From Flavobacteriales bacterium (GTDB lineage: Bacteria > Bacteroidota > Bacteroidia > Flavobacteriales_D > CAJJDF01): a stretch of DNA of 64,000 nt. The DNA lies in assembly GCA_020630395.1 (NCBI GenBank), contig JAHDBM010000002.1:84234-148233 (forward strand). The letters are read 5' to 3'. Of this stretch, positions 36,214-59,446 are shown piece by piece; position 1 is the first letter of the stretch, and every line of letters begins with the position of its first letter. Both the position numbers and the translations under genes were made by a program. The notes below the pieces were generated by a model that was not told the DNA's origin, did no database searches, and saw only the letters and a list, made by a program, of their open reading frames with translations.

Positions 36214-39200
36214 ATGAAAAATTTAAGAACATATATCCAGTTATTTATACTAAATGTTATAGCAGGTATTGCTATGGCTCAACCGTCAGGAAGTGGAGGT
36301 TCAACTAACATACCTTCTCCAAATGCTGCTAATCTTGGAACCTATGCTAATATACCCGTAAGTTATTATACAGGAACCCCAGATATTAGTATTCCATTAG
36401 CAAAAGCTGTAGAGGGAAATTTAGAAACAAACGTAAGCTTGAGCTATCATACAGGAAATCTTGTAGTTGGTCAACCCGCAAGTTTTGTAGGGAAAGGATG
36501 GTCACTTAACTCGGGAGGTGTTATTTCTCGTGTAGTACAAGATAAACCAGATGATAGTGCAAATATTGGGTACATGCATTATTATTATCAATATTTTCAT
36601 TCCCCTTCAGGCAATGATAATCGAGAAGATATAATGAAGTATGATTGGGAGCCAGACATTTTTACATTTAATGTAGATGGATTATCGGGTAAATTTTTCT
36701 TTAAAAGAAACCTTTCTAACAACTATGAAGCGTTCACGATACCTAAAAGTGATGTTAAAATTACAGCAACATTTGACACTATTACGGGAACCAATTACCC
36801 CTATATAAAGAAAGCAAACAAGATAGTTGGATTTAAACTCATTAATACTGATGGTAAAATATACCATTTTGGTATCGCAGATGAAAGAACGGCTAAAGAA
36901 AGTTCAATTCTAGAATCTTTTAAATATAAATACAATTCAGCTGGAGAATTGGTACAGGACGGGAATGATGTTATTCAACAAAAGGTAACAAATAGTTGGT
37001 ATTTATTAAAGATAGAAGATCACAATAAAAATAATTCAATCGAATTTTTTTATGAAGATGACTTATATACCTACAATACTTTAGCAGGAAATACCATTAT
37101 GTATAAAAATTATGACAGAACTGAAAGCATAATAGATGATAGTAGGAACGGAAGTGGAATATTCCAAGGAGAACAAACTTCTAGGAATGTATTATCGCCT
37201 AATAATTCCATAAACAATGGTTTTTCCACTTCTCGACCTTACCTAGGTAAATATCATAATTACCGAGTGAATATAGTAGAAGGTGTTCGGTTAACTAAAA
37301 TAAAGACAAACCTAGATGTAATTGATTTTAAATATGTGAGCCATAGGCTTGATATCAATAAATGGGGGAATAACCCTTATCCTGAAACATTAGACACAAT
37401 AGTTGTTCGCAGTAATTCGCCTGCTGGATCTATTAATAGTGTATGTAAGCAAATAATTTTCGATTATGAATATTTTCAAGACCAAAAATTAAAATATGAA
37501 AATAACTCTATATATGCAGGCACAAGAAAAACATTGTTTCTAAAAAGCATTAGAGAAAGATCATGTGATGGTACTATAGAAAACCCACCTTATAAATTTG
37601 ATTATCATGCGCCTGAGCTAAATGCAAATAATTCAAAGTTTTTCCCATCACGACTTAATAAAGCTATAGATCATTTTGGTTATTATAACGGAGCGGACGG
37701 GAGTGATGCAGCTTCAGTAAATAATAACAAAGAACTAATCAATATACCAAGAACTACTGTCTCTTTCCCTGACAGAAAATATATTGGTGGCAAAGTAAGA
37801 AGAACACAGGGAGGTGCCAACAGAAGCCCTAACGAAACGTACACCAAGTATGGTGTATTAGAAAAAGTAACTTATCCTACTGGCGGGTCAGCAACTTATG
37901 AGTATGAAAACCACAGATATTATTTTGATAAAATATATGACTACAGTGAAGAAATTCTTTTAGAAGGCTGTAAATACGCACAAGGAAATTGTTGTAATAC
38001 TTTTAATGAAGATGATACGCTTACCTTTTCAAGTGATAAAGAATTAGAGTATGCTTATTTTTTATTAAACCTTACAGTTGGAGATGATGCAGATCCAGCT
38101 TCATTACAACCATGCCCAGGAAATATAACACCTAAAGCAACTATCACATTAAGGGTTATTGATCAAGTTTCAAATAGACAAGTTTATACCAAACAAGTTA
38201 ATATTGAGGGCCATAACTTTTATGAAGAAAAGTTTTCTTTCCCAATAGATGAAGGAAATTTCACAGGTCCTTTACAGCCTTTAAATGTTGGTCTTAAATC
38301 AAATGTCCAGTATAAATTTGAGGTTGATATAAATGGAGGTCCTGGTTCTTTTAAATTAGTTGTACCAAGAGTACAAGTAGAAGAAAATAAATTAGGTTGT
38401 GGTTTAAGAATAAAAAAAACAACCCTATCTGATGGTATTCAAGAAACGGATAATGATATGGTAAAGTTATATGAATACAATGTTGGAAACTCTAACACTT
38501 CTTCTGGTGTTCAGTTTGTACAACCTCAATATGGCGTATCTGTTGATCATTATGATTATTTAAAAATGAGAAAAGGATCATCATCACCATTTAACAAATA
38601 TGAAACGTATCAAAAAAACCAACCTGTAACTATTCATGGTGGAGGTATTTATTATCAAAAAATCATATTCTCGAATAATAGTTTAATGCCTTTGTTTGGA
38701 TTTAATGGAGTACAAGTAGGATATAAAGAAGTAAAAGAAAAAACATTACCCTCTAATGGGGTTAACGTTTTCAAATACAAAGCCAACAGAAAAAGAGAAC
38801 AAGAATTTTCAAAAGAGTATCCTATAGTTCCTCATCAAATTGATATAGAAAACGGGCAGTTTGAAAAAACAGAAGTTTACCATAAAAATGGAAATCTATT
38901 ATCCGAAACCACCTACAAACCATGGGAATACGCACTAAATAGTATTACCCAATCAGAAAAATTATATAAAATACATGATGTTTTTAATTTTAATCAACCT
39001 GCTGCTGCTGGGGGAGGTCCTAAAATTGATGCCTATATGATTGTAGCTGTTGATTACAAAATAAACACTTCATATTATCAATTAGAAGAAATTATAACCA
39101 ATGCAGAGGGATTAACCACCTCCACAAAATATGAATACGATCAATTGAATCCGCATTTAGCTCCAACAGCTGTAATAAAAGAAAATACGGATGGTACTTT

Positions 39201-42200
39201 AAAAATAGATAAGTTTTATTATGCAGTTGATGAAATAATTGATGCTGACTTAGCACAAGTGTTTACCGATAGAAACCTTAATACACTTCCAATTAAAACA
39301 GAACATCATATTGTAAAAAATGGAACTGCTACTATGATTGGTGGGAAAAAAAGAGAGTATGGAATCTTTAATGCTAATGGAAGCAAGTTGCATTCAATAA
39401 GTACTCTTGAAAATGTGAAACTATACCCTTACATAACTTATAGTTTTAAAGGAAATAAAAATGTATCCGATAATTTTACGGGTTCTTGGGTAGCTGTTGA
39501 TACTAATTTAGAGTATAATGCGAATGGTAATATCATCAAATCAAGATCAATTAATTGGGGTGTTATGGAATACTTTTATCAAAATAATTTAATTACTGGA
39601 ACAAAGTATTTAAATCATGAAAAATCTGTTATCTATTATCCAGGAACTAGGCTAGTTCAATCAAAAACAGATATAGATGGTACACAAGCAGATTTTGAAT
39701 ACGACCAGTTTGGAAGATTAGTAAAAACAAATACTCTAAACAATAATGTCATTTCTACTAATGAATACAACATTTTAGATGCATCTCTAGGTACTTTTCC
39801 TAATATCAAAACAAAGACTGTTTACACACCAGTTATAGGAAGTAATGTAACTGAAGAAACAGTTATCACTTATTCAGATGGTTTAGGCAGAAATATTGGT
39901 TCAATTGCCGTAAATAGCTCTCCTAACAACAAAGACTTGTTAACTGTTAATTATTATGATTCATTGGGACGAGTGTATAAAAAATCTCAACCTTTTGAAG
40001 GAAATACGAATGGTCAATTTATATGGAAAGCAAGCAACCCTGCTGATGAGAAATATGAATATACTACTTACGAAAAATCGCCTTTAAATAGGGTCCTATC
40101 TAGTAGAATATCAAATTGGCACCCCGTTACAAATGAATTCAAAGTAAATGATGCATCAGATCTAGTAAAAGACTGGTTAAATGGAGGTTATTATGCTCCA
40201 GGAACATTATCTAAGCTAGTAAATATTAGTGCAGAAGGAAATAAAACCATAACATTTACTGATGGTTTTGGGCAAGAAATTTTAGCGCGTAAATCAAACT
40301 CAACCGAAACAAAGAGAAATGACACATACTATCTATATGATATTAAGGGTAGGGTAACGACAGTGCTACCTCCTAATACAACCCCAACAGACAAAGATTT
40401 AATTTATACGTATACTTATGATGGTCAAGGGAATAAAATATCCTATAAAGACCCAGGAAAAGAAGAAGTTAATTTATTGTATAATGATATTGGTAAGTTG
40501 GTTGCTAAACAAGATTTTCAGCTAAAAAATCAAAACAAATGGCATATAACGGAGTACGATCAATATGGTAGAGCAAATAGAACGGGAACTGTTACTTCTA
40601 GTGCTGCACCTAATCCAAATAATGTTATTGCACAAGATATGTGGACAGATGTTTATTATGGATCTACAGGTATTGAAACAAATAAAGTATTAAGTTCGAC
40701 TACAGCTGTATTGGATGGCTACACACTTACAAATAAAAAGCTATCAGAAGTAATAGAGTATGATTCATTTGGTTTTGTAAAGAAGAGTACGATTACGAAT
40801 CATTTAGGGGGAAAAACAATACAAGGTAAATTTGTATATGATTATGCTGGTAATATCATCAGTTCCAGAACAAGTCATCAAAAAGAGGCAGGCTCAAATC
40901 AAGTAAATATTTTCAATGAGTTTGAGCTTGATAATCATGGAAGAACACTAGATAAGTATCAAACAATTAATGGGCATAAAGAGCATTTAGTTCATTATGA
41001 ATATGATAAATTTGGTAAAATAATCACCACTCAATTGGGAATTGAAAATGGTACTGCCTTACAAACAATTAATTCTAGTTATAATATTGCAGGACATCAA
41101 ACAGGAATTAATGCCAAACCAACAGTTGATGATTTATTTAGTATTAGAATAGGGTATGATGACGACTTAGGTATAACCAATGGTCAAGCCTATAAAGATG
41201 GAAAAATAGGAGTAATTAGTTGGAAACATAAAGGGTTGAATTGGCAAAACTATAGTTATGAATATGATTATTTGGGTCAATTAACAAGTGCTGAGTATTC
41301 TGAAGAGACTGGTAATAGCCAAAAAGGAGATTATTCCTGCCAATATTCTTATGATGTAAGAGGGAATCATAGATCAATCAAAAGAAGAGGGGTATATAAA
41401 AATGCGGCAGGAAATTTTGCTGCGGGCGTAATGGATGATTTGAAGTATTACTATTATGGTACTAACTCTAATAAACTTAAGAAAATTACCGACAGAAGCA
41501 TTCCTTTAGCTAATTCAACTGGAGGTGTTGGAGGTGTTGGAGGTGTTGGTTCAGGATCAGGTGGAGCTATACCTCCGAGTGCAAGTAGATCTGGCACTCC
41601 ACAATCTGGTCCAAATATGCAATTTAAAGGATACCACCCTCAAAAAAGTGGAAGCTACCAATATGACAATAACGGCAATATAATTTATGATCCAAGCAAA
41701 AACATTGATATTAAGTACAATTATTTTGATTTACCATACGAAATTAAGCCTAGAGGAAAAGAGGAAAAGATCGTATTCCTTTATTCAGCAACAGGAGAGG
41801 TATTAGAGCGAAAAATTGTAAAGGCTAGCTTAACAATCAAAAAAACAGAATATTTAGGATCATTTTATTACGATAATGGGGTGCAAGTATTAAATACTGC
41901 TACAGGAAAAGTGAAAAATTTAGCATCTACTCCTGTATATGATTATCATATTAATGACCATTTAGGAAATACAAGAGTGGTATTTAGTGATCGTAATAAT
42001 GATGACTCAATCTCCAATAATGAGGTGTTCCAAATTAATAATTACTACCCATTTGGGTTGTCTATGTATGGAGAATGGACGAGTTTAAATGACTCGACTG
42101 TAGGTCCAGATAGAAATGACCATTTATATAACGGGATGGAGCGAGTAGATGATTTAGACTTAGCGTTAGATTTCACTACGTATAGAACCTATGACCCAGC

Positions 42201-43254
42201 TATTGGAAGATGGTATCAGCCAGATCCTAAATCTACCTTATTACCAAACTATACGCCATATAACAGTATGGTGAATAATCCAGTAAGCTATAACGATCCA
42301 GATGGAGATATCGTACCAGCTCTTATGTTAATTGGTAGTGCGGTCTTAAGTGGTATTAGCGCACAAAAAAATGGAGGTAAATTCATCAGTGGTTTTAGTT
42401 TTGGTGTATTTAGTGGTACTGTTACTATGGGTATAGGTGGTGTATTTAAAGAAACAGGATCGGTTGGAAGAGAACTAGCACGAGCTGTTTCGCATGGTGT
42501 TGCTGGTGGTGCGTTAAGTTTGCTTCAAGGAGGGGACTTTATGAGCTCTTTCGCTTCGGGAGCTGCTTCTTCACTGGTAAGTGCAGGAACTGCTAATTGG
42601 CAGGGTGCGGGTAGATACGCATCATCAGCTTTAGCTGGTGGTGTGGCTAGCCATCTTTCTGGAGGAAATTTCTTTTCAGGGGCTATTCAAGGAGCTGCCG
42701 TTCACGCATTAAATTTTGAGCTTCATAGAGCAAATCTTAAAAGTATTCCAGGTGGACCAATTTTTGATAAAGATGGCAATTTAGTTGGATATGTGGTTGG
42801 TGATGGGCAAGGACCTACACAAATAGCAAGAGACTTAAACGAAAATTATTCTTGTATGCTAAGCTGTGAAACACAATGGACTGAAATAGTTTTGAATAAT
42901 ACGGAAAACTTTGGTCACGTCATTAACTCAGGCGGAAATGTTTTAGATAATACAAATCCAAGCTATAACAATAATCCTGATCTAAAACCGGGAGATGTCT
43001 TAGTCATTGTCAATGGTACAATGCGTGGTTCGGGCATAAATATTAACAATTTAGGAACTGATCTTGTTATTAAACCGGTAAGTCACTTACATCCTAAAGT
43101 TCGAGATTTTGGATTAATTTTGTATGAAATTATGGAGCAGGGTGGAATGATTGAAAAAAGAGCTACAATTAATGAATACATAAGGTTAAAAGAAGAAGGT
43201 GTCCCTCATTATATGCGTTGGCCAATGAGATTGCCAACAGGTAGCAAATGGTAA
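36214..43254 (+). CDS. Large RHS/YD-repeat surface protein
   Basis: 2346 residues with a signal peptide (cut after IAMA, residue 22). The N-terminal part has the Bacteroidota pattern (IPVSYYTGTPDISIPL, LSYHTGNLVVGQPASFVGKG). YD repeats run through the middle (FEYDQFGRLVKT, YTYDGQGNKISYKDPG, YEYDYLGQLTSAEY). The RHS-associated core ends near residue 2030 (YHINDHLGNTRVVF, TYDPAIGRWYQPDP, NDPDGD). The last 316 residues vary in this family; here a glycine-rich stretch is followed by a possible LysM-like part (QGPTQIARDLNE, then LKPGDVLVIVNG) and no recognised toxin. No T9SS domain is present. It shares a transcript with the pseudo-protease gene. Confidence 0.93.
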   Translation: MKNLRTYIQLFILNVIAGIAMAQPSGSGGSTNIPSPNAANLGTYANIPVSYYTGTPDISIPLAKAVEGNLETNVSLSYHTGNLVVGQPASFVGKGWSLNSGGVISRVVQDKPDDSANIGYMHYYYQYFHSPSGNDNREDIMKYDWEPDIFTFNVDGLSGKFFFKRNLSNNYEAFTIPKSDVKITATFDTITGTNYPYIKKANKIVGFKLINTDGKIYHFGIADERTAKESSILESFKYKYNSAGELVQDGNDVIQQKVTNSWYLLKIEDHNKNNSIEFFYEDDLYTYNTLAGNTIMYKNYDRTESIIDDSRNGSGIFQGEQTSRNVLSPNNSINNGFSTSRPYLGKYHNYRVNIVEGVRLTKIKTNLDVIDFKYVSHRLDINKWGNNPYPETLDTIVVRSNSPAGSINSVCKQIIFDYEYFQDQKLKYENNSIYAGTRKTLFLKSIRERSCDGTIENPPYKFDYHAPELNANNSKFFPSRLNKAIDHFGYYNGADGSDAASVNNNKELINIPRTTVSFPDRKYIGGKVRRTQGGANRSPNETYTKYGVLEKVTYPTGGSATYEYENHRYYFDKIYDYSEEILLEGCKYAQGNCCNTFNEDDTLTFSSDKELEYAYFLLNLTVGDDADPASLQPCPGNITPKATITLRVIDQVSNRQVYTKQVNIEGHNFYEEKFSFPIDEGNFTGPLQPLNVGLKSNVQYKFEVDINGGPGSFKLVVPRVQVEENKLGCGLRIKKTTLSDGIQETDNDMVKLYEYNVGNSNTSSGVQFVQPQYGVSVDHYDYLKMRKGSSSPFNKYETYQKNQPVTIHGGGIYYQKIIFSNNSLMPLFGFNGVQVGYKEVKEKTLPSNGVNVFKYKANRKREQEFSKEYPIVPHQIDIENGQFEKTEVYHKNGNLLSETTYKPWEYALNSITQSEKLYKIHDVFNFNQPAAAGGGPKIDAYMIVAVDYKINTSYYQLEEIITNAEGLTTSTKYEYDQLNPHLAPTAVIKENTDGTLKIDKFYYAVDEIIDADLAQVFTDRNLNTLPIKTEHHIVKNGTATMIGGKKREYGIFNANGSKLHSISTLENVKLYPYITYSFKGNKNVSDNFTGSWVAVDTNLEYNANGNIIKSRSINWGVMEYFYQNNLITGTKYLNHEKSVIYYPGTRLVQSKTDIDGTQADFEYDQFGRLVKTNTLNNNVISTNEYNILDASLGTFPNIKTKTVYTPVIGSNVTEETVITYSDGLGRNIGSIAVNSSPNNKDLLTVNYYDSLGRVYKKSQPFEGNTNGQFIWKASNPADEKYEYTTYEKSPLNRVLSSRISNWHPVTNEFKVNDASDLVKDWLNGGYYAPGTLSKLVNISAEGNKTITFTDGFGQEILARKSNSTETKRNDTYYLYDIKGRVTTVLPPNTTPTDKDLIYTYTYDGQGNKISYKDPGKEEVNLLYNDIGKLVAKQDFQLKNQNKWHITEYDQYGRANRTGTVTSSAAPNPNNVIAQDMWTDVYYGSTGIETNKVLSSTTAVLDGYTLTNKKLSEVIEYDSFGFVKKSTITNHLGGKTIQGKFVYDYAGNIISSRTSHQKEAGSNQVNIFNEFELDNHGRTLDKYQTINGHKEHLVHYEYDKFGKIITTQLGIENGTALQTINSSYNIAGHQTGINAKPTVDDLFSIRIGYDDDLGITNGQAYKDGKIGVISWKHKGLNWQNYSYEYDYLGQLTSAEYSEETGNSQKGDYSCQYSYDVRGNHRSIKRRGVYKNAAGNFAAGVMDDLKYYYYGTNSNKLKKITDRSIPLANSTGGVGGVGGVGSGSGGAIPPSASRSGTPQSGPNMQFKGYHPQKSGSYQYDNNGNIIYDPSKNIDIKYNYFDLPYEIKPRGKEEKIVFLYSATGEVLERKIVKASLTIKKTEYLGSFYYDNGVQVLNTATGKVKNLASTPVYDYHINDHLGNTRVVFSDRNNDDSISNNEVFQINNYYPFGLSMYGEWTSLNDSTVGPDRNDHLYNGMERVDDLDLALDFTTYRTYDPAIGRWYQPDPKSTLLPNYTPYNSMVNNPVSYNDPDGDIVPALMLIGSAVLSGISAQKNGGKFISGFSFGVFSGTVTMGIGGVFKETGSVGRELARAVSHGVAGGALSLLQGGDFMSSFASGAASSLVSAGTANWQGAGRYASSALAGGVASHLSGGNFFSGAIQGAAVHALNFELHRANLKSIPGGPIFDKDGNLVGYVVGDGQGPTQIARDLNENYSCMLSCETQWTEIVLNNTENFGHVINSGGNVLDNTNPSYNNNPDLKPGDVLVIVNGTMRGSGININNLGTDLVIKPVSHLHPKVRDFGLILYEIMEQGGMIEKRATINEYIRLKEEGVPHYMRWPMRLPTGSKW
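41521..41547 (+). repeat. Threefold 9-bp tandem repeat inside the RHS gene
   Basis: GGAGGTGTT occurs three times in a row and encodes three Gly-Gly-Val units (about residues 1770-1778) just before the RHS core. Because the unit is a multiple of three, copy-number changes would keep the frame. Confidence 0.85.
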
Positions 43255-47625: not shown

Positions 47626-49416
47626 TTAGTCTAGTTTTAAAACAGCCAAGAAAGCAGATTGAGGAACTTCTACGTTTCCAATTTGCCTCATACGTTTTTT
47701 ACCTTTCTTTTGTTTTTCTAGTAGTTTACGTTTACGTGAAATATCTCCACCATAACATTTAGCGGTTACATCTTTACGAACAGCTTTTACCGTTTCTCTA
47801 GAGATAATTTTAGCTCCAATTGCCCCTTGTATAGCAATATCAAATTGTTGCCTAGGGATAAGTTCTTTAAGTTTTGCACAAATACGTTTACCTAAGTTGT
47901 AGGCATTGTCTTGGTGTACTAAAGCAGATAAAGCATCTACCTGATCTCCGTTAAGTAAAATATCTAGTTTAACCAGTTTAGATTGCTTGTATCCAATTGG
48001 GTTATAATCGAAAGAGGCATAACCTTTAGAAATTGTTTTTAGTTTATCGTAAAAATCAAAAACGATTTCGGTCATGGGTATATCAAAAGTTAGCTCAACC
48101 CTATCAGATGTTAAGTATACTTGGTTCTTTAATTCTCCTCTTTTTTCGATACATAAGGTCATAATAGAACCAACATAATCACTCTTGGTAATGATTTGCG
48201 CTTTAATAAATGGTTCCTCTACATAATCCATTTTAGAAGGATCGGGTAAATCAGATGGATTGTTAATTTCTAATAACTCTTGATCTTTTTTAAGAAACGC
48301 TCTATACGAAACGTTAGGGACCGTAGTAATAACGGTCATGTTAAACTCACGCTCTAAACGTTCTTGAATAATTTCCATGTGCAACATTCCTAGGAACCCA
48401 CATCTAAAACCAAAGCCTAGTGCAGCAGAACTTTCTGGTGCAAAAACTAAGGAAGCATCATTCAATTGCAAACGTCCCATTGCATCTCTTAGCTCTTCAT
48501 AATCATCTGTGTCTACAGGATAAATACCTGCGAATACCATTGGTTTAACATCTTCAAAACCTTTTACAGCATCAGTACATGGATTAGCAACAGTAGTAAT
48601 CGTATCACCAACTTTTACTTCTTTTGCTTCTTTAATACCAGATATTATGTAACCAACATCACCAGTGCTAACTGCTTTTTTAGGAACTAAGTCTAGACCT
48701 AACACCCCAATCTCATCAGCATTATATTCTTTAGCAGTATTTAAAAATTTTACTCTGTCTCCTTTATTAATTTGCCCATTTAATACTCTGTAATAAGCAA
48801 TAATACCTCTATAACTATTAAAAACCGAATCGAACACCATGGCTTGTAATGGAGCTTCAGGATCTCCTTTTGGAGCTGGTACTCGATCTATAACAGCCTT
48901 AAGAATATCATTTACACCTAAGCCAGTTTTGCCACTAGCAGGAATAATTTCTTCTTGTGTACAGCCAATTAAATCAATAATTTGATCAGAAACTTCCTCT
49001 GGCATAGCACCAGGTAAATCCATTTTATTAAGAATTGGAATAATCTCTAAATCATGATCTATTGCTAGGTATAAATTTGAGATTGTTTGCGCTTCAATTC
49101 CTTGAGATGCATCTACAATTAGCAAAGCACCTTCGCAAGCAGCAATTGAACGAGAAACTTCATAAGAAAAATCTACGTGACCTGGGGTGTCGATTAAATT
49201 CAATACAAATTCTTCACCTTCGTGTGTGTAATTCATTTGAATAGCATGACTTTTTATGGTAATCCCACGTTCACGCTCCAAATCCATATCGTCAAGGGTT
49301 TGTTCTTGTAGTTGTCTTTCGGTTATGGTGTTGGTAGTCTGTAGTAGTCTATCTGCCAGGGTACTTTTACCATGGTCAATATGAGCAATAATACAGAAGT
49401 TTCTAATATTCTTCAT
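47626..49416 (-). CDS. lepA: Elongation factor 4 (LepA)
   Basis: Ribosome-associated GTPase involved in initiation and back-translocation under stress. The 596 residues carry G1 AHIDHGKST (11-19), G3 DTPGHVDF, G4 NKMDLPGA, and the LepA-specific C-terminal domain ending FLAVLKLD with [25 protein letters not shown]. The length and the absence of domain IV of EF-G confirm LepA. It is the first gene of a leftward run that includes the Crp-type regulator seven bases downstream. The segment upstream (49417-49508) holds no gene. Confidence 0.97.
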
Positions 49417-49544: not shown

Positions 49545-49598
49545 CGCATGTGACACATGCGGGTAGTATTAGTTCCTTATTATCTATGCGCTAATACT
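49545..49598. repeat. Two further inverted repeats near the terminator
   Basis: CGCATGT-GAC-ACATGCG (49545-49561) and AGTATTAG with CTAATACT (49565-49572 and 49591-49598) follow each other. The second pairs with the end of the upstream coding sequence. They may extend the terminator region. Confidence 0.6.
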
Positions 49599-50184
49599 AT
49601 TTAGATTCTTTCATTACAAACTGCAATGAATAATCATCATAAGTTGTAAGTTGCCAATTAGCAATTGGTGTTTTCCATACATGTCCTCCACCAGTATAGG
49701 TTTCTTCTTCTGCTTCAACACCTAATTTTTCTGATATAATTTTTAGGTATTTATTGCAGTCTATTTTTTTAGATTCATCTTCTGTGTCAGATTCATCATC
49801 ATAATAAATTTCTTCTTTTACCATAATAGATAACCTAACTTCGCTAAGTTGACTATCATCATTATATTTCTTAGAGTAGAATCTTGAACCTTCATAATCT
49901 CCTTTCTCCCATTTAGAATTGAAATTTCCTGTTTCTTTTTCTCCTACAATATATGCTTTAGTGTTTGCATCATATTTATCAATATTAGCTATTGGAGAAA
50001 GTGGCTTCAAACCTTTATCAGCATCAGCAATTAAACCAAAAATTTGATCTTTTACTATGTCTCCTGAAGATTGAGTTGTTGTAGATTCTGTTTCAGTATC
50101 AGTTCCAGATGTTGTAACGGTTACTTCCGATTCGCATGAAGTAAACATAAGTGGTATTGCGATTATATATAATATCTTCTTCAT
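49597..50184 (-). CDS. Lipoprotein of unknown function (195 aa)
   Basis: 195 residues with a lipobox (LMFTSC, Cys17) and a threonine/serine-rich linker (VTVTTSGTDTETESTTTQSSG), then an alpha/beta domain with an acidic patch (DDESDTEDESKKIDC). I recognise no family. It starts 11 bases after the stop of the gene at 50196-50657 and shares its -7 element, so the two are co-transcribed. Two hairpins follow its end. A cell-surface or periplasmic location is inferred from the lipobox. Confidence 0.72.
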   Translation of the reverse strand: MKKILYIIAIPLMFTSCESEVTVTTSGTDTETESTTTQSSGDIVKDQIFGLIADADKGLKPLSPIANIDKYDANTKAYIVGEKETGNFNSKWEKGDYEGSRFYSKKYNDDSQLSEVRLSIMVKEEIYYDDESDTEDESKKIDCNKYLKIISEKLGVEAEEETYTGGGHVWKTPIANWQLTTYDDYSLQFVMKESK

Positions 50185-50195
50185 TGTTTTTATTT

Positions 50196-50657
50196 TTATA
50201 ATTGAATTACTTTCCCTTCGTCAAACTTTAATTTAATTTCTCCTCCAAAAGGACTTTTGTTACTTCCTTTTTTTACTAGCTTGCCTTCAAAAACAACATT
50301 AATGTCTTCTTTTCCTTCTTTTTCAGCAGCTTTAAGTGCATCTTTTACTTTTGTTTGATCTTCTTTAGATACTACAACAAAAGGTTTAAAAGAAAGACCG
50401 TCTTGTTCAAATTCACAAAGGTAGATCACAGGATCTTTTCCATAACTTCCAGATGTACATACTTGTCCATTTAGCGTTACTTTTTCTTCTTTATATGTTT
50501 CTTGATCGAAATAAGAGAATAATTGAACTCCTGATGTCCCATTCATAAATGTGGCTACAGGTTTTACATATTCTGAGATTTTTTTTGATTCGACAGATAC
50601 TTCTCCGCAAGAACCAAGTAGTAAACCTCCAACTAACATTAATACTAATTTTTTCAT
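50196..50657 (-). CDS. Lipoprotein of unknown function (153 aa)
   Basis: 153 residues with a lipobox (LLLGSC, Cys17). The mature part (EKVTLNGQVCTSGSYGKDPVIYLCEF, and a lysine-rich KDALKAAEKEGKEDINVVFEGKLV) has a strand pattern reminiscent of OB-fold (tRNA_anti-like) lipoproteins, but I am not sure. Two cysteines in the mature part might form a disulfide. A -7 box TACATTTG lies 35 bases upstream of its start. It is the first gene of a two-gene lipoprotein unit next to a LytTR two-component pair. Confidence 0.72.
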   Translation of the reverse strand: MKKLVLMLVGGLLLGSCGEVSVESKKISEYVKPVATFMNGTSGVQLFSYFDQETYKEEKVTLNGQVCTSGSYGKDPVIYLCEFEQDGLSFKPFVVVSKEDQTKVKDALKAAEKEGKEDINVVFEGKLVKKGSNKSPFGGEIKLKFDEGKVIQL

Positions 50658-50691
50658 GTGTACTCGTTTTTTGTTTTAATTATTATGAGTA

Positions 50692-50699
50692 CAAATGTA
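50692..50699 (-). promoter_or_regulatory. -7 promoter element of the lipoprotein pair
   Basis: On the minus strand the sequence reads TACATTTG, an exact TAnnTTTG match 35 bases before the lipoprotein start. The -33 element is not clear. Confidence 0.5.
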
Positions 50700-50770
50700 T
50701 ACCAGTGAACAAGTGTTATTTAATAAGATTCTTTATCGTAATGGATAAATTCGTTTACGTATACTGTGAG

Positions 50771-51529
50771 TTAGTTAACGCCCATTTGATTAATTGCTGA
50801 AACAATTTTTTCTTTTTTTCTTGAGCTAATAGGAACTAAACCACCATTAATAAGCTCAATATAACCTCCATCTTTTTTAAGAATACCTTTAACAAAATTC
50901 ATGTTTACTAGATGAGATTTATGAACGCGACAAAAGTTATAATTACTTAATAATTCATCATACTGCTTGATTGGTTTCGATATAAGCAGTTTTTCTCCAT
51001 TTTTAAGATAAAAGTAAGTGTAGTTGTTATTGCTCTCACATCTTAAAATATCTTGTATTTGAATAATGAATGTTTTTTCTAGCGTTTGTAAAACAATTTT
51101 TTTTTCTTGATTGTTGGTATTTGATAAGTTATTTAACAATACATCTAATTTAACAGATGCATTATCAGATTGTATTTGTTGTTCAACTTTTTTTATTGCA
51201 GCTAATAACTCATCAGGGTCTACAGGTTTAAGAATATAATCTACTGCACTAAATTTAAAAGCTTCAATAGCAAATTGTTCAAATCCAGATATGAAAATAA
51301 CTTTACTTTTCATGTTGCCTATTAACTTTAACATATCAAAGCTGGTATCTTTACCTAGCATAACATCAAGTAAAATAACATCAGGATTAGTGTTAACAAT
51401 TAACTCAGCACCACTGTTCTTATTGTCAGCTTCGCCAATAATGTTTAAGGGAATATCGTGTGTTGAAATGATTCCTTTTAGTGTTTGTCTTACTTTATTT
51501 TCATCATCTATAATTACAGCAGATATCAT
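50771..51529 (-). CDS. LytTR-family response regulator
   Basis: 252 residues. The receiver domain has the acidic pair D8-D9, the phospho-acceptor D55 in VILLDVML, the T/S region VIFISG and the lysine in YILKPVD. The C-terminal half is a LytTR DNA-binding domain (DILRCESNNNYTYFYL, FCRVHKSHLVNMNFV). Regulators of this class bind direct repeats upstream of target genes. It starts eight bases after the sensor kinase stop, so kinase and regulator form a LytS/LytR-type two-component system. The target is unknown; the lipoprotein pair next door is a candidate. Confidence 0.93.
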   Translation of the reverse strand: MISAVIIDDENKVRQTLKGIISTHDIPLNIIGEADNKNSGAELIVNTNPDVILLDVMLGKDTSFDMLKLIGNMKSKVIFISGFEQFAIEAFKFSAVDYILKPVDPDELLAAIKKVEQQIQSDNASVKLDVLLNNLSNTNNQEKKIVLQTLEKTFIIQIQDILRCESNNNYTYFYLKNGEKLLISKPIKQYDELLSNYNFCRVHKSHLVNMNFVKGILKKDGGYIELINGGLVPISSRKKEKIVSAINQMGVN

Positions 51530-51537
51530 ATAAAAAG

Positions 51538-53430
51538 TTAATTATACAGAGGTAAAGTTAATACAACTTTTGTTCCTTCTCCTTTATTTTTATCGGTAAA
51601 ATTATTGCTAATATTAAAATCTAGTTTTTCTTTATAAAACTCGGCAAGATTATTTAGTCTTTCCTTTACAATTTTACTAGATAATGATTGATGTTCTTTT
51701 TTTGGTGTTATATTTTTAGTTATACCTAAGCCATTATCTGCTATTGAAATGTGTAGTTTGTTTTGATTTGTTGAGGTAAAATTTACTTTTAATAATCCTC
51801 TATAGGGCAAATTTTGAACCCCGTGTTCTATAGCGTTTTCTACAAATGGTTGTGTTAACATAGGAGGTAATTGAATTTCCTCTGGGTCTAATTTTTCATC
51901 CACAGTTAGCTCAAAATCAAAATTTTCATAGCGTTTTTGTTGAACTACTAAATAGTTTTCTAATGTTGAAATTTCATCCTCTAAGGATATAGATTCTTTT
52001 CTAGAGTTTTCTAATACAAGTCTGGTGAGTTTAGCAATTTTAGTTAGGTAACTACTGGCTTCTTTAGGTTTATTATCATAAATATAACCTTGAGCTGACA
52101 TTAAAGCATTTGAGATAAAATGAGGGTTCATCTGTGTTTTAAGGAGTTTTTGCTCAAGTTTTAGCATGTTGTTATCATTTATCACTTTTCTTCTATTGTA
52201 AATTAGAAATATTAGCCCCATGAAAACAAGAAATAACACAACAATCCCTATAATAACATAGTTTTTTATCATCAAAGATGATTCCGCAATTTTACTTTCT
52301 TTTTCTTTTAATGTTAAGCTGAAGCTTAATTGTTCATTTTCTCGTTCTTTTTTTTCTGTATCATATTTGATTTGAAGATCATTTATTTGGTTAAGCTTTT
52401 CTTTGTTGAGAAGTTCTTTGTATTTATCACTATATTTTTTTTGAAAATCATAAGCTAAGTTATAGTTTCCATTTTGCTCATGTATATAGGCTAGCATTTT
52501 ATAATCATCAGCAATTGCTGGAGATTGTAATTTTTCATGAGCATCAAGTGATAATTCATACGTTTTTAATGCTGCTTTGTAATCCAATTGCTTAAGTTGA
52601 GCTACACCAAGTTTTTGAGCAATAAAAGCAATTCTTCGAGTGTCCTTTTGATTAATTAATGTTTTTAATAGATTGTCATAGTATTTAATGGCTTCATCTG
52701 TTTTTCCTTTTTTAAGGTTTATTTCTGCTAATACTTCTTTAGGATCATTTACACTAGGTTTTAAGTTAGATGAAATAAAAAAATCATCAGCTTGTTTGGC
52801 ATAATAATATGCACTGTCTAGCTCTTCTTTGTATAAAAATACTTTAGCTAGTTTTACTTGAAAACTAGCAATAAGTTTATCGTCTTTCCATAGTGGAGAA
52901 ATTAAAAGTCCTTTTCTGTAATTTTCTTCGGCCTTAGGAAGATCTTCTAACCTTAAGTGAAGATCAGCTATAGCCATATATAAACCTGGGTTTCCGTCAT
53001 ATTCACTACTTCTTCTGTATACTTCATTGGCTAACATGTAATTTTTAAGTGCATCATCAAAAGAGCCAGTATACTCTTCAATTTGCCCTATGTTTCTATA
53101 AGCTCCGGATAAACTTTTGTCATCCTTAGTAGCAGTGGAAATATCAATTACAAGTTGCATAATGTTTAATGCACTATCTTTTTTTCCATGTTGGAAGTAT
53201 ATAAGTGCTTTAGTGCTTAGAGGTATTAATATAATTGAACTATCCTTTTTTGACAGAGCAATTGCTTTGTCGCATAACTCAAGCGCCTTTGTTTTTTCTT
53301 TAAAAATTTTTGATCTTGCTTCCTTATCTAAAGATCTTATTTTAAGAGAGTCTTGGATAGAAACTTGAGAAAAAGAGTTCAAAAAAGAATTTAATATTAT
53401 TAGGACAATAAAGACTTGATTTATAATCAT
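51538..53430 (-). CDS. TPR sensor histidine kinase, LytS type
   Basis: 630 residues. A signal sequence and TPR-like repeats (about 30-340) are followed by a coiled coil, one membrane helix (YVIIGIVVLFLVFMGLIFLIY, 391-411), a His-kinase domain with the H-box QMNPHFISNAL (His437) and the conserved MLTQPFVENAIEHG, and a C-terminal ATPase (ISIADNGLGI). This matches the two-component partner of the adjacent LytTR regulator. TPR sensing domains are frequent in Bacteroidota kinases. It is divergent from sufC, with 166 bases between them. A similar TPR-membrane plan appears in the regulator at 33 kb. Confidence 0.92.
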   Translation of the reverse strand: MIINQVFIVLIILNSFLNSFSQVSIQDSLKIRSLDKEARSKIFKEKTKALELCDKAIALSKKDSSIILIPLSTKALIYFQHGKKDSALNIMQLVIDISTATKDDKSLSGAYRNIGQIEEYTGSFDDALKNYMLANEVYRRSSEYDGNPGLYMAIADLHLRLEDLPKAEENYRKGLLISPLWKDDKLIASFQVKLAKVFLYKEELDSAYYYAKQADDFFISSNLKPSVNDPKEVLAEINLKKGKTDEAIKYYDNLLKTLINQKDTRRIAFIAQKLGVAQLKQLDYKAALKTYELSLDAHEKLQSPAIADDYKMLAYIHEQNGNYNLAYDFQKKYSDKYKELLNKEKLNQINDLQIKYDTEKKERENEQLSFSLTLKEKESKIAESSLMIKNYVIIGIVVLFLVFMGLIFLIYNRRKVINDNNMLKLEQKLLKTQMNPHFISNALMSAQGYIYDNKPKEASSYLTKIAKLTRLVLENSRKESISLEDEISTLENYLVVQQKRYENFDFELTVDEKLDPEEIQLPPMLTQPFVENAIEHGVQNLPYRGLLKVNFTSTNQNKLHISIADNGLGITKNITPKKEHQSLSSKIVKERLNNLAEFYKEKLDFNISNNFTDKNKGEGTKVVLTLPLYN

Positions 53431-53596: not shown

Positions 53597-54352
53597 ATGT
53601 TATCAATTAAAAATTTACATGCCTCAATAGAGGATAAAGAGATTATAAAAGGACTTAACTTAGAAGTTAAGGCAGGTGAGATTCATGCAATAATGGGTCC
53701 AAATGGAGCTGGTAAAAGTACGTTATCTTCTATTCTTGCTGGTAATGAAGATTACGAAGTTACTAAAGGAGAAATTTTATTTGAGGGAAATGATTTAACT
53801 GAGCTCGATACAGAAGAAAGAGCTGCTGAAGGGTTGTTTTTAGCGTTTCAATATCCAGTTGAAATACCTGGAGTTAGTAATATGAATTTTTTGCGTACCG
53901 CAATTAATGAAATAAGAAAATACAAAGGACAAGAAGACATTAAAGCGAAAGATTTCTTAGCCTTAGTTAAAGAAAAATCTGCTTTAGTAGAATTAAACCC
54001 TGATTTACTTAAGAGATACGTAAATGAAGGTTTCTCGGGAGGAGAGAAAAAGCGAAACGAGATTTTTCAAATGGCTATGTTAGATCCTAAATTGGCCATA
54101 CTAGATGAAACTGATTCTGGGTTAGATATTGATGCCTTAAGGATTGTTTCTAATGGAGTTAATAAGTTAAGAACTCCAAACAATGCTACTATTGTTATTA
54201 CACATTACCAAAGATTATTAGATTATATTGTGCCCGACTTTGTTCATGTTTTGTATGATGGAAAAATCGTTAAATCTGGGCCAAAAGAATTAGCATTAGA
54301 GTTAGAAGAGAAGGGGTACGATTGGATTAAGGAAGAATTAGCAACTGTTTAA
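53597..54352 (+). CDS. sufC: Fe-S assembly ATPase SufC
   Basis: ABC-type ATPase of the SufBC2D complex. The 251 residues have Walker [10 protein letters not shown], the Q-loop FQYP, the signature [10 protein letters not shown], Walker [13 protein letters not shown], and the H-loop TH. The SGGEKKRNE signature and SufC length identify it clearly. It stands first in its operon, with sufD one base after its stop. It is separated from sufB by 20.7 kb, unlike the usual sufBCDS order, and must have its own promoter in the 166-base gap before it. Confidence 0.97.
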
Positions 54353-54353
54353 T

Positions 54354-55640
54354 ATGAGTGCAGTGATATCAGCAAGTAAAATGGAGGAGTTTATTTCGTC
54401 TATTAAGAATAGTAATTCTCCCATAACTGATGAATTAGAAAATTTACGAACACCTTTTGTAAATAGATTATTAGATGAAAATTTCCCTACTACTCGTGAT
54501 GAGTATTGGAAATACATTAGAACTAATAAAATAGCGAAGTCATCTTATTCTTTTTTAAACGAAGAGGTTAGTAATACTATATCATCAGCTTTTGTATTAG
54601 ATGAGGAGAATAAAGAAATAGATGCTTATAAAGTAGTATTAAAAAATGGGTTTAATACAGCTCATGATTACAATAATTTACCAAATCAATCTATAGCAAA
54701 TATTAAAGAGATTACTGCATGTTTTTCAACAGAATTAGCTGATTATTTTGCTAAAGAGGAGGATAATGACCGAAATGTATTTAATACGTTAAACTCAGCT
54801 TATTTTAATGGAGGATTTTTAATTGAGTTAAACGAGACTTTAGATAAGCCTTTGCATATTATTCATGAAATATCAGGAGGTGATGTAATTGCTCAACCAA
54901 GAATTATTGTTACCTCTAAAAAAAGCGTAGAAGCTACTATTATTCATACGACTGTTAGCGATAAAGCCAATAATGTATTGCTAAATGGTACTTACGAAAT
55001 ATTTGTAGCAGAGAATAGTAATATTAGTGTTATAAATATTCAAAATGAAAGGGAAGGAGTTTTTCAAGTAAATAATACGCAAGCTCACCAAGAGAAAAAT
55101 AGTACTGTTTCGTTACATTTTTATTCGTTAAACGGAGATTGGATTAGAAATAACACCAATATTTTAGTAAACGGAGAAGGATGCGAAAGCAATTTGTATG
55201 GAGCATATACCGCAATAAATAAACAGCAAATAGATAATCATACCGTAGTAGATCATAGAAAAGCGAACTGTGAAAGCAATGAATTGTATAAAGGGACTGC
55301 TACCGATAAAGCTACCGTTACTTTTAACGGGAAGGTTTTTGTGAGGCAAGATGCTCAAAAAATAAATGCATTTCAAAGTAATAACAACATTTTATTATCG
55401 GATGATGCAACTATTAATTCTAAACCAGAATTAGAAATTTATGCGGATGATGTAAAATGTAGTCATGGTTCAACAACCGGCCAGTTAGACGAGGAAGCAT
55501 TATTTTACCTTAGATCAAGAGGATTAAGCCCTGAGAGTGCTAATAAATTATTAGTTGGTGCATTTGTTGGTGAAGTAATAGAAAACGTAAAGCAAGATGT
55601 TGTAAAACATCATATTGCACAATTATTTGGATTAGAATGA
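54354..55640 (+). CDS. sufD: Fe-S assembly protein SufD
   Basis: 428 residues of the SufD/SufB fold, which pairs with SufB in the scaffold complex. The N-terminus contains EYWKYIRTNK, the middle is a parallel beta-helix, and the C-terminus has the conserved DDVKCSHGSTTGQLDEEALFYLRSRGLS, with the histidine and cysteine region found in SufD. It starts one base after sufC and overlaps sufS by four bases (ATGA), so all three are translated together. Confidence 0.96.
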   Translation: MSAVISASKMEEFISSIKNSNSPITDELENLRTPFVNRLLDENFPTTRDEYWKYIRTNKIAKSSYSFLNEEVSNTISSAFVLDEENKEIDAYKVVLKNGFNTAHDYNNLPNQSIANIKEITACFSTELADYFAKEEDNDRNVFNTLNSAYFNGGFLIELNETLDKPLHIIHEISGGDVIAQPRIIVTSKKSVEATIIHTTVSDKANNVLLNGTYEIFVAENSNISVINIQNEREGVFQVNNTQAHQEKNSTVSLHFYSLNGDWIRNNTNILVNGEGCESNLYGAYTAINKQQIDNHTVVDHRKANCESNELYKGTATDKATVTFNGKVFVRQDAQKINAFQSNNNILLSDDATINSKPELEIYADDVKCSHGSTTGQLDEEALFYLRSRGLSPESANKLLVGAFVGEVIENVKQDVVKHHIAQLFGLE

Positions 55641-56869
55641 TTAAAAATGCCATTAAAACAATAGAGGAAGTACGATTAGATTTTCCAATTTTAGAACGAG
55701 AAGTTAATGGCAAAAAATTAGTATACTTTGATAATGGAGCAACTACTCAAAAGCCGAAAGTAGTAGTTGATGCTATTAATGATTATTATAGCAATCAAAA
55801 TAGTAATATCCATAGAGGGGTTCACACGTTAAGTCAAGAAGCAACATCAGCTTATGAAGAAGCTCGAATTAAAATTCAAGAGTTTATTGGAGCTAAGCAT
55901 TCACATGAAATTATTTTAACTACTGGTACAACAGGTAGTGTTAATTTGTTAGCACATTCGTTTTCTAAAGCCTTTTTAAAAGAAGGGGATGAAATTATTA
56001 TTTCTGCAATGGAGCATCATTCTAATATTGTCCCTTGGCAAATGATATGCCAGGAAAGAGGATGCAAATTAAAAATAGCTCCTATGAATAATAAAGGGGA
56101 GATCATTTATGATGAATTTTTAAACCTTTTATCTTCAAAAACAAAATTAGCTGCTTTAGTTCATGTTTCTAACACACTTGGAACAATAAATCCTGTTAAA
56201 AATATAATTAAAGATGCTCATAAAGTTGGAGCAAAGGTATTTATTGATGGAGCTCAGGCAGTTTCTCATGATGTAGTTAATGTTCAAGAATTAGATGCTG
56301 ATTTTTATTGCTTTTCTGGTCACAAATTATTTGGGCCAACTGGAACAGGAGTACTATATGGTAAAGAAGAGTTGTTAAATCAAATGCCACCTTATCAAGG
56401 AGGCGGAGACATGATTAAAACAGTAACCTTCGAGAAAACAACTTATAATGAATTACCACATAAGTTTGAAGCAGGTACACCAAATATTGTGGGAGGCATT
56501 GGTTTAGGTGTAGCCATTGATTATATTAACTCAGTAGGTTTTGATTTCATTAAAAAACAAGAAGAAGAATTATTAATATATGCCACTAATAAGCTAAAAG
56601 CTATAGATGGATTAAAAATTGTTGGAGAAGCAAATGAAAAAGCTTCTGTAATATCCTTTATTGTTGAAGGTATTCACCCTTATGATATTGGTGTCATTTT
56701 AGATAAAACAGGCGTAGCAGTTAGGACTGGTCATCATTGTACACAACCCATAATGGACTTTTTTGAAATTCCAGGAACTATTAGAGCATCTTTTTCTTTT
56801 TATAATACCAACCATGAAGTTGATTATTTCGTGAGTATGTTAGAACGGGCAATTAACATGCTCAAATAA
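55637..56869 (+). CDS. sufS: Cysteine desulfurase SufS
   Basis: Pyridoxal-phosphate enzyme that takes sulfur from cysteine and hands it to SufE or SufU for cluster assembly. The 410 residues contain YFDNGATTQKP, the HHSNIVPW stretch, SGHKLFGPTG with PLP lysine K230, and RTGHHCTQP with the active-site cysteine C368, all typical of group II (SufS/CsdA) desulfurases. No sufE or sufU is next to it; instead three unknown paralogues follow, the first 13 bases later. Confidence 0.97.
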   Translation: MIKNAIKTIEEVRLDFPILEREVNGKKLVYFDNGATTQKPKVVVDAINDYYSNQNSNIHRGVHTLSQEATSAYEEARIKIQEFIGAKHSHEIILTTGTTGSVNLLAHSFSKAFLKEGDEIIISAMEHHSNIVPWQMICQERGCKLKIAPMNNKGEIIYDEFLNLLSSKTKLAALVHVSNTLGTINPVKNIIKDAHKVGAKVFIDGAQAVSHDVVNVQELDADFYCFSGHKLFGPTGTGVLYGKEELLNQMPPYQGGGDMIKTVTFEKTTYNELPHKFEAGTPNIVGGIGLGVAIDYINSVGFDFIKKQEEELLIYATNKLKAIDGLKIVGEANEKASVISFIVEGIHPYDIGVILDKTGVAVRTGHHCTQPIMDFFEIPGTIRASFSFYNTNHEVDYFVSMLERAINMLK

Positions 56870-56882
56870 CAAACTTGTTTTT

Positions 56883-57290
56883 ATGAAAAAATTGAAATAT
56901 TACCTCTTTGGGTTGTTTGTAATGAGTCTTTTTTTAGCAACATCAAAAAGAATTTATTTTTTAACGGTACAATACGATCCATCTGCTATTGTTAACCCTG
57001 AGGTTTTCTTAATAACCTCATATGATGATAATGGAACTTTAATGATGGATACTACTTTGTTAGATTCTATTAATGCTGATAATAATTTTTCAGTTATGTT
57101 TGAACCGTATGATGATGAAGCACAGTATATTTTTGCTGTAAACAATTTCACAAAAAAAGATACTATATCAAATGTTCAAATGACGTTTAAAAAAGGATGT
57201 GGGTTTAGTTGTGGCGGTCCAGCACTAGAGAATATGTGCTTTTTACATAATGGAGAAAGAAAACAAGGACAAGAAGTATCCATTGATTAA
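56883..57290 (+). CDS. Cysteine-tail protein, first of a tandem triplet
   Basis: 135 residues. A basic start and a hydrophobic segment (residues 5-19) suggest a signal peptide or membrane anchor. The mature part has PSAIVNPEVFLIT and a highly conserved core FAVNNFTKKDTISNVQ, then a cysteine tail with C106, C110 and C119 (KKGCGFSC, ENMCFLHNGERKQGQE). It starts 13 bases after sufS and is closely followed by two paralogues, so it is part of the suf transcript. I recognise no family. The cysteines could bind a metal or form disulfides; neither is shown. Being exported argues against a direct role in cytoplasmic cluster assembly. Confidence 0.8.
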   Translation: MKKLKYYLFGLFVMSLFLATSKRIYFLTVQYDPSAIVNPEVFLITSYDDNGTLMMDTTLLDSINADNNFSVMFEPYDDEAQYIFAVNNFTKKDTISNVQMTFKKGCGFSCGGPALENMCFLHNGERKQGQEVSID

Positions 57291-57300
57291 AGACACTGAG

Positions 57301-57708
57301 ATGAAAAAATTAAAACTATTTGCTTTCGGATACTTCGTATTATTTTTATTTGTTGCTGGTAAAAACGAAACTCCATATTTAACGGTTAATTATAACCCAT
57401 CTAATATCGTTAACCCAGAATGTTATATTATTCAACTATATGAATTAGAAGGAGTAACAGTAGCTGATACAATTTTATTAGACACATTAGATACTGAGAA
57501 TGCTTTTTCAACTAAAGCAGCTTTATATGATGAATGTACATTAAACATATTTGCTGTCAATAATTTCACTAAAAAGGATACCATATCAAATGTTCAATTA
57601 ACCTATAAAAGGAGAGGTTGTATGAGTTGTGCAGGAGATAAATTAGACAACATGTGTTTTTACCACAATGGAGAGAGAAAACAAGGTCAAGAAATAGTTG
57701 TTGATTAA
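57301..57708 (+). CDS. Cysteine-tail protein, second of a tandem triplet
   Basis: 135 residues, paralogous to the genes on both sides. It has the same hydrophobic N-terminus, PSNIVNPECYIIQLY, the core FAVNNFTKKDTISNVQLTYKRR and a cysteine tail with C107, C110 and C119 (CMSC, DNMCFYHNGERKQGQE). The end is nearly identical to the first copy, while the middle has diverged. Codon choice in the conserved core differs from the first copy, so the duplication is not recent. The ATG at 57301 follows the previous stop by 10 bases and fits the paralogues; an earlier ATG at 57250 lies inside the upstream gene. Confidence 0.8.
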   Translation: MKKLKLFAFGYFVLFLFVAGKNETPYLTVNYNPSNIVNPECYIIQLYELEGVTVADTILLDTLDTENAFSTKAALYDECTLNIFAVNNFTKKDTISNVQLTYKRRGCMSCAGDKLDNMCFYHNGERKQGQEIVVD

Positions 57709-57718
57709 AGCAAAGGCA

Positions 57719-58120
57719 ATGAAAAAGTGGAAATATTATATATTAATATATTTAGTAATGATGTTGTTTATTGCTAAACTTGAAATTCCATATTTCACAG
57801 TTAAATATGATCCTAGCATTGTTACAAACCCTGAATTGTTTTTAATCAGGACTTTCGAAAGTCAAGGAGTTTATACTAATGATACATTACAAATTGACTC
57901 ATTAACCGCACAAAACCATTATACAGCTAGATTAGTGTTAGATCAACAATTAGATTTTCAAGTATTATGTATCAATAATTTCACAAGAAAAGATACAATT
58001 TCAAACGTGCAAATTACATACAGTAAAAGAAGAGGCTGTGGATGTTCTTCATCTGCTAAAATTAATTGCTATAAACATAACAGAGTTAGAAAGGAAGATG
58101 AAAACCTATATATAGATTAA
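57719..58120 (+). CDS. Cysteine-tail protein, third of a tandem triplet
   Basis: 133 residues and the most divergent copy. It keeps the N-terminal segment, PSIVTNPELFLIRTF, the core CINNFTRKDTISNVQITYSKRRG and a cysteine tail of C107, C109 and C117, in which the spacing has shrunk to CxC. The ending NRVRKEDENLYID is less like the others. The ATG at 57719 follows the second copy by 10 bases. A frameshifted membrane gene begins four bases after its stop. The three-copy arrangement and the conserved NNFTxKDTISNVQ core suggest a selected function that I cannot name. Confidence 0.8.
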   Translation: MKKWKYYILIYLVMMLFIAKLEIPYFTVKYDPSIVTNPELFLIRTFESQGVYTNDTLQIDSLTAQNHYTARLVLDQQLDFQVLCINNFTRKDTISNVQITYSKRRGCGCSSSAKINCYKHNRVRKEDENLYID

Positions 58121-58124
58121 TGAA

Positions 58125-58516
58125 ATGAGTTATAAGATTAAAGATCCGTTAAGGTTAAAGAAGATATTGTTTTGGGACTGGTTTTTAGCATTAATTACAG
58201 GTGTGTTAGGAGTACTTTTTTAGTAAAGTGGATGATGTTATTAGTTATTCCATTAGATGTGCTTCTTATTATTTCAATATGTCATGTGTTATATGGTTGT
58301 TATTCACTATTTCTATATACTAGAAAAGAAGTGAAGGGAAGTTTATTATTAATATTAGTTTATGCTAATGCTATTTGGGCAGGTATTAGTATTTTTCTAT
58401 TTATCTATTATTTAAGTGATGTGTCAATATTAGGAATGATAATGTTATTATCGCAACCACTTGTAGTCGGAGGACTAGCATATGCTGAAGCTAAACAGTT
58501 AAAGAAAGTGAAATAA
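58125..58516 (+). pseudogene. Four-segment membrane protein with one frameshift
   Basis: An ATG at 58125 opens MSYKIKDPLRLKKILFWDWF and a first membrane helix (LALITGVLGVLF), then reaches TAG at 58221 inside a run of six T. One more T would continue in frame with a second frame that has three more membrane helices (MMLLVIPLDVLLIISICHVL, LLILVYANAIWAGISIFLFI, LGMIMLLSQPLVVGGLA) and ends at 58516. With one base added it is 131 codons (130 residues). The loss may be a sequencing error in a homopolymer, a real mutation or slippage-based switching. The next gene overlaps its stop by one base. Confidence 0.75.
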
Positions 58517-58851
58517 TGAACACAGATTTTAACGATAATGTATTTAAAATTGTAAGACTAATACCAAAAGGTAGAGTTACTTCTTATGGTGCTATAGCCA
58601 AAGCATTAGGAGCCGCAAAATCATCTCGAATGGTTGGTAGAGCTATGAATCATTCTCATGCTGAACAAGAATATGTGCCAGCCCATAGAGTAGTTAATAG
58701 AAATGGATTACTAACAGGCAAACATCATTTTAAAACTCCTACTAGTATGCAAGAGCTATTAGAGATTGAAGGTGTTGAGGTAAAAGAAGATAAAATCATT
58801 AATTTTAAACATCATTTTTGGGATCCATTAATTGAATTAAACATTGAATAA
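58516..58851 (+). CDS. Alkyltransferase-like (ATL) protein without active cysteine
   Basis: 111 residues of the MGMT DNA-binding domain. MGMT has a PCHR motif whose Cys accepts the alkyl group; here it is PAHR (Ala56 in VPAHRVVN), so it cannot repair directly. The rest is typical: IPKGRVTSYGAIAKALG, the arginine-finger region SSRMVGRAMNHS and LLTGKH. ATL proteins bind O6-alkylguanine and steer it to nucleotide excision repair. It overlaps the upstream gene by one base and the next gene starts eight bases before its end. Mfd and Ung, both in the window, are other repair genes but far away. Confidence 0.9.
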   Translation: MNTDFNDNVFKIVRLIPKGRVTSYGAIAKALGAAKSSRMVGRAMNHSHAEQEYVPAHRVVNRNGLLTGKHHFKTPTSMQELLEIEGVEVKEDKIINFKHHFWDPLIELNIE

Positions 58852-59446
58852 AGCCATTTACATTTTTCTTTTATTGATAAGCTTTTCACTTAAAGGTCAA
58901 ATGTTCGATTCTATTAGTGCCAGTTTAACACATAAACCTCAGGTATACGCCAATTATGACACTCGTAATTCATTTATAACGAATCAAATAGCTAAAATAC
59001 AGAGTGTTAAATTAGGATTGACATGGAACAAGCAGTTTACTCTCGCAATAGGCTATAATTGGCTAAACACTAATTTCCAAACGACCTTACAAGATGGCAT
59101 ACAAGCAGAGTTAAAAACTCGATTTATAACCCCATTTGTAGAATATTCTTTTTTAGAACATAAAAACATAGAAGTTACCATACCTGTTCATCTGGGGTTT
59201 GGAACTTCTTTTTATCAAGATTGTAATAATGCTATTTATAAACGAAACTTTATTATGATGTACGAGCCTTCTATGACAGCTACTTTACGTTTCTTAAAAT
59301 ATTTTGGAGTAGGTGCAGGTATTGGATATCGCCTAATGCTAGTTGGAAATAGAGAAATACAAGAAGAGTTTAACTCTCCGATTTATGTAGTTAAAACTAA
59401 AATCTTTTTTAGCGATATCTATAATGATATCTTTAAGAAGAAATAA
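58844..59446 (+). CDS. Outer-membrane beta-barrel-like protein
   Basis: 200 residues read from a TTG at 58844, which overlaps the ATL gene by eight bases. The first 18 residues form a signal peptide (IYIFLLLISFSLKGQ). The rest has alternating amphipathic strands with glycine-aromatic patterns (LGLTWNKQFTLAIGYNW, GVGAGIGYRLMLVGN) as in small outer-membrane barrels. It is the last gene of the suf-led run and its 3' end overlaps the convergent GH3-family gene by 14 bases. The function is unknown. Confidence 0.68.
   Translation: MNKAIYIFLLLISFSLKGQMFDSISASLTHKPQVYANYDTRNSFITNQIAKIQSVKLGLTWNKQFTLAIGYNWLNTNFQTTLQDGIQAELKTRFITPFVEYSFLEHKNIEVTIPVHLGFGTSFYQDCNNAIYKRNFIMMYEPSMTATLRFLKYFGVGAGIGYRLMLVGNREIQEEFNSPIYVVKTKIFFSDIYNDIFKKK

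Follow-up and report, generated by a model that had tools for sequence, protein, structure and literature searches.

Do the three paralogous genes that follow sufC, sufD and sufS in a Flavobacteriales genome take part in iron-sulfur assembly, or do they share a transcript with the suf genes rather than a function? The locus lies in a window of 64,000 nt (the whole stretch of DNA that was analysed). From sufC through the gene for a 200-aa protein, all genes share the + strand, and no gap exceeds 13 bp:

sufC: 53597..54352, + strand, head of the gene string; ABC_tran
sufD: 54354..55640, + strand; SUFBD_core
sufS: 55637..56869, + strand, class-V aminotransferase, ending 13 bp ahead of T1
T1: 56883..57290, + strand, predicted exported protein of 135 aa with an N-terminal hydrophobic helix, a predicted beta domain and a Cys/His tail
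T2: 57301..57708, + strand, 135-aa paralogue of T1 with a Cys/His tail and, within the beta domain, C41 and C79
T3: 57719..58120, + strand, 133-aa paralogue with C84 besides the Cys/His tail
Small membrane protein gene: 58125..58516, + strand, in two frames (58125-58223 and 58172-58516), split at a T run near 58215-58223
ogt/MGMT-like gene: 58516..58851, + strand; DNA_binding_1; in four family members, the first listed homologue behind sufS
Gene for a 200-aa outer-membrane-like protein: 58844..59446, + strand, also found behind the ogt-like gene in the family

The open reading frame coordinates agree with the original prediction of three consecutive genes of 133-135 residues, with 10 bp between T1 and T2 and between T2 and T3, and with T1 beginning 13 bp past the sufS stop at 56869. 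The clear paralogy that it had claimed is borne out by pairwise identities of 55% (T1/T2), 42% (T1/T3) and 41% (T2/T3) and by copy-versus-copy E values of 2e-44 and 3e-31, far beyond chance, in a whole-genome search that found no fourth copy in the same genome. Each protein has the hydrophobic N-terminus, the P-x4-NPE block and the NNFTxKDTISNVQ core that had been described, and the series CxxxC, CxxC and CxC, each with a third Cys, was recovered in T1, T2 and T3, respectively. All three reading frames are intact; dS among the copies is saturated (1.4-1.9) with dN of 0.38-0.51, which points to old duplicates under purifying selection. Composition does not set the triplet apart, with a GC content of 0.27-0.30 against 0.31 for the window.

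The family had been called unrecognised, and our searches bear this out. T1-T3 have no family match in Pfam, NCBIfam, PHROG, PADLOC or the PDB, and the profile searches and structure predictions that had been proposed as a check gave no confident match to a known family. A DUF3127 match of T2 was rejected as chance (E 0.22; 12 bits against a cut-off of 27), and PDB sequence matches to LPXTG-protein chains (E 0.007-0.02) vanished once relatives were added to the profile. No credible relative came from the genome searches, which covered 5 other members of the family, 299 genomes from the order, and 395 each from the class and the phylum; they gave only weak partial matches, of which those inspected were other proteins. 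Pattern scans found no relatives in viral contigs or in a collection of genomes from 84,980 species, where 61 matches were attributed to chance by a profile check. A final search with the mature part of the proteins across 399 genomes of the order found two relatives:

Relative 1: G1077 C240, locus L138:387-776, putative lipoprotein, single-copy; per-genome E 3.3e-9 (399 genomes)
Relative 2: G1015 C205, locus L139:1360-1773, putative lipoprotein, single-copy; per-genome E 1.8e-5 (399 genomes)

Because this late search still turned up two relatives, the absences elsewhere hold at the first-look sensitivity of the genome search and for the sample drawn. A plasmid search with the L138 protein found none.

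Several results support the kinship of these proteins with the triplet. The relatives share 41% identity (E = 2e-30), and a profile built from the two alone finds T2 at 6e-12, T1 at 1e-10 and T3 at 1e-9; in a six-frame search of the window, it finds nothing besides T1-T3 below 0.09. Homology thus holds both ways, from the triplet profile to the relatives and back, and hhalign joins the two sets with a probability of 98 and an E value of 1e-13 over 105 columns. The homology is full-length, including a core with an N-x4-DTI motif and an N-x3-K end. Unlike the triplet proteins, the relatives are encoded by single genes and match a lipobox pattern with a lipidated Cys; T1-T3 are therefore homologous to the L138 and L139 proteins but are not lipoproteins. 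Neither relative has a match in Pfam or NCBIfam. Each carries an extra Cys beside the lipidated one and a single Cys in its tail, located at or next to the position of the triplet's first; the second and third tail Cys and the tail His are missing. The cysteine tail, which the original prediction had taken as a mark of the family, is thus confined to the triplet.

The proteins themselves are predicted to be small envelope proteins. T1-T3 begin with a Lys-rich stretch followed by about 14 hydrophobic residues; none matches a Prosite-style lipobox pattern or has a Cys within its first 40 residues. The hydrophobic start in all three copies, together with the lipobox of the distant relatives, supports the earlier suggestion of export. 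In a model of a triplet protein (pLDDT 61), residues ~24-106 (about 85) form an all-beta domain and the tail is disordered, as it is in a second model (pLDDT 54); at these low pLDDT values, only the secondary structure class is taken from the models. Foldseek searches with both models gave no match below 0.001 and no significant fold match. Each protein would thus start with a signal or anchor helix and continue through the predicted all-beta domain into a tail of 30 residues that bears three Cys and one His.

How did such genes come to lie behind sufS? In four members of the family, the order is sufC-sufD-sufS, the ogt-like gene and the gene for the 200-aa protein, closely spaced in all but one, which has a gap of about 0.5 kb; the only other genome of the genus has a different gene behind sufS. 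The triplet is present at 0 of 11 other suf loci in the family and order, and in sister genomes no small membrane protein gene separates sufS from the ogt-like gene either. Given sisters in which sufS is followed by the ogt-like gene, the simplest reading of these gene orders is that the triplet and the small membrane protein gene were inserted into an existing sufCDS-ogt string, with parsimony favouring gain here over loss in the sisters. The two frames of the membrane protein gene encode products that match consecutive parts of an intact 129-aa homologue (L130:1378-1767); the frameshift is either a real loss or an assembly error.

In the wider neighbourhood, sufB (31468-32910) lies about 20.7 kb from sufCDS, with a gene for an RHS-repeat-like protein (36214-43254, 2346 aa) between them. 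In four genomes of the same family, lepA is directly divergent from sufC; here, lepA (47626-49416) and sufC are separated by two lipoprotein-like genes, a LytTR-type response regulator and a histidine kinase (49597-53430).

As to transcription, a promoter directly before T1 had been named as evidence against joint reading with suf, and no Bacteroidota-type promoter (TTG-N17-25-TAnnTTTG) was found between sufS and T1. Within T1, position 57100 resembles a promoter, which is no more than chance would give, with 2.2 such matches expected in the region. The short spacing and the lack of such a promoter make read-through plausible, and on the spacing we consider it likely that T1-T3 are co-transcribed with suf from sufC. 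The original proposal of reading with the suf operon therefore stands as plausible, and the transcript itself is what we infer from these features. Of the two options that it had left open for the link to suf, meaningful or accidental, the first is not supported. No suf genes occur near either relative: one neighbours peptidyl-prolyl isomerase-like, epimerase-like and purD-like genes and the other has unrelated hypothetical and signalling genes (all named by eye). None of the 11 suf loci has the triplet, four having the ogt-like gene after sufS, so that T1-T3 lack the conserved presence in suf operons expected of a component of the SUF machinery. We hold with some confidence that the triplet has no role in iron-sulfur assembly; its link to that process is most likely a shared transcript rather than a shared function.

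What, then, might the tail do? It reads C106-x3-C110-x8-C119-x2-H122 in T1, which has no other Cys (three in total); C107-x2-C110-x8-C119-x2-H122 in T2, which with C41 and C79 has five; and C107-x-C109-x7-C117-x2-H120 in T3, which has one further Cys, C84. The original prediction missed the His behind the third tail Cys (C-x2-H-N), which is invariant in all three copies. The spacing of the first Cys pair differs between copies (x3, x2 and x1). T3 retains the equivalents of C110, C119 and H122 despite a tail identity of 30-37% to T1 or T2; simple counting puts the chance of this at about 0.02-0.04.

Our tentative preference, held at somewhat short of even confidence, is that the tail forms a 3Cys-1His metal site, with zinc the most plausible metal. 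What is seen in the sequence is the ligand set, which alone cannot decide between a metal site and disulfides. In favour of metal, four classical ligands are kept in all three copies, three sequences being few for calling the His invariant. Placing the three tail Cys and the His in one site would leave no odd thiol in T1 or in T2, where C41 and C79 make up an extra pair, and metal binding at the tail would order or link it.

The strongest alternative, only slightly less probable, is a disulfide module in which tail Cys pair within the tail (with C41-C79 in the domain of T2) or between T1, T2 and T3, the latter joining them covalently in an assembly at the surface or in the periplasm. Cys in exported proteins usually end up in disulfides, and T1-T3 are predicted to be exported. 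T2 has its extra Cys pair, and in the relatives the Cys beside the lipidated Cys could pair with the single tail Cys, a hint that the tail Cys of the family is a disulfide partner. Against this, the odd Cys counts of T1 (three) and T2 (five) would leave one thiol free or bonded between molecules, and the invariant His would be left without a role.

Returning to the metal site as the most likely function of the tail, we propose that the triplet arose in its lineage by tandem expansion of a single-copy lipoprotein family of the order, previously undescribed, that it would have lost the lipid-anchor Cys and gained two more tail Cys and the tail His, and that it would be expressed by read-through from sufC while taking no part in iron-sulfur assembly. 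The paralogy of the copies, their conservation, their relatives and the insertion are established by sequence comparison; the explanation as a whole, from expansion to metal site, has in our judgement an even chance of being right. A bolder version is distinctly unlikely: that this is a new exported 3Cys-1His metallodomain that arose in one lineage by losing the lipid Cys and gaining ligands, and that came under the control of the iron-sulfur operon so as to be made under iron or sulfur stress.

We give slightly less credence still to the reading in which the genes would be passengers, products of neutral expansion or genes in decay whose tail has no selected present role. The lack of a credible copy in 5 other family genomes and the frameshift in the next gene of the string agree with it, but the three intact frames and the substitution rates given above indicate old copies kept under selection. 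Lineage-restricted genes can form clusters of homologues in Bacillus (PMC10003748), and the expansion is thus not surprising in itself.

These comparisons give a first outline of an undescribed envelope lipoprotein family, consisting of two lipobox-bearing relatives and the triplet, whose paralogues appear to have swapped a lipid anchor for a Cys/His tail. They also present a lineage-specific set that was inserted into a housekeeping string and shares no evident function with it, which warns against reading function from adjacency to suf.

Among known systems, the closest to suggest an iron-sulfur role are the NEET proteins, with the CDGSH consensus C-x-C-x2-(S/T)-x3-P-x-C-D-G-(S/A/T)-H (PMC5859297). 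The triplet resembles them in having three Cys and one His within a short stretch, and T3, which opens with C-x-C, has a C-x-C-x7-C-x2-H that recalls the consensus (PMC5859297). That the tail carries a [2Fe-2S] cluster in this manner would explain the position 13 bp behind sufS, but has the slimmest chance of any reading: the tails of T1-T3 depart from the consensus, with no CDGSH sequence and a different spacing in T1 and T2; CDGSH families of Pfam and NCBIfam give no match at E up to 10; the relatives lack both the ligands and suf neighbours; the genes are missing from sister suf loci; and the domain is predicted to lie outside the cytoplasm, an iron-sulfur tail being unlikely in an exported protein.

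DUF4369 and similar lipoprotein beta domains of Bacteroidota share, as an impression only, the general look of a short exported beta domain. T1-T3 do not match DUF4369 (PF14289) at E up to 10, and the two real DUF4369 proteins of the genome sit elsewhere. In a putative lipoprotein of another family (L123:808-2103, 431 aa), the stretch CLKLPYDPSIPTEDQSFFIKLF... resembles the start of the triplet beta domain, at 20 bits, a score that loses significance once all the genomes searched are counted. Another weak match, to profile columns 37-94, recurs in very long SprB-like surface proteins of the same order (L014-L030, identified by eye only). Their repeats, which lack the Cys/His tail, reach only about 15-22 bits across part of the domain, which falls short of significance given the number of genomes. 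This match perhaps reflects a beta-sandwich look that the repeats and the triplet domain have in common.
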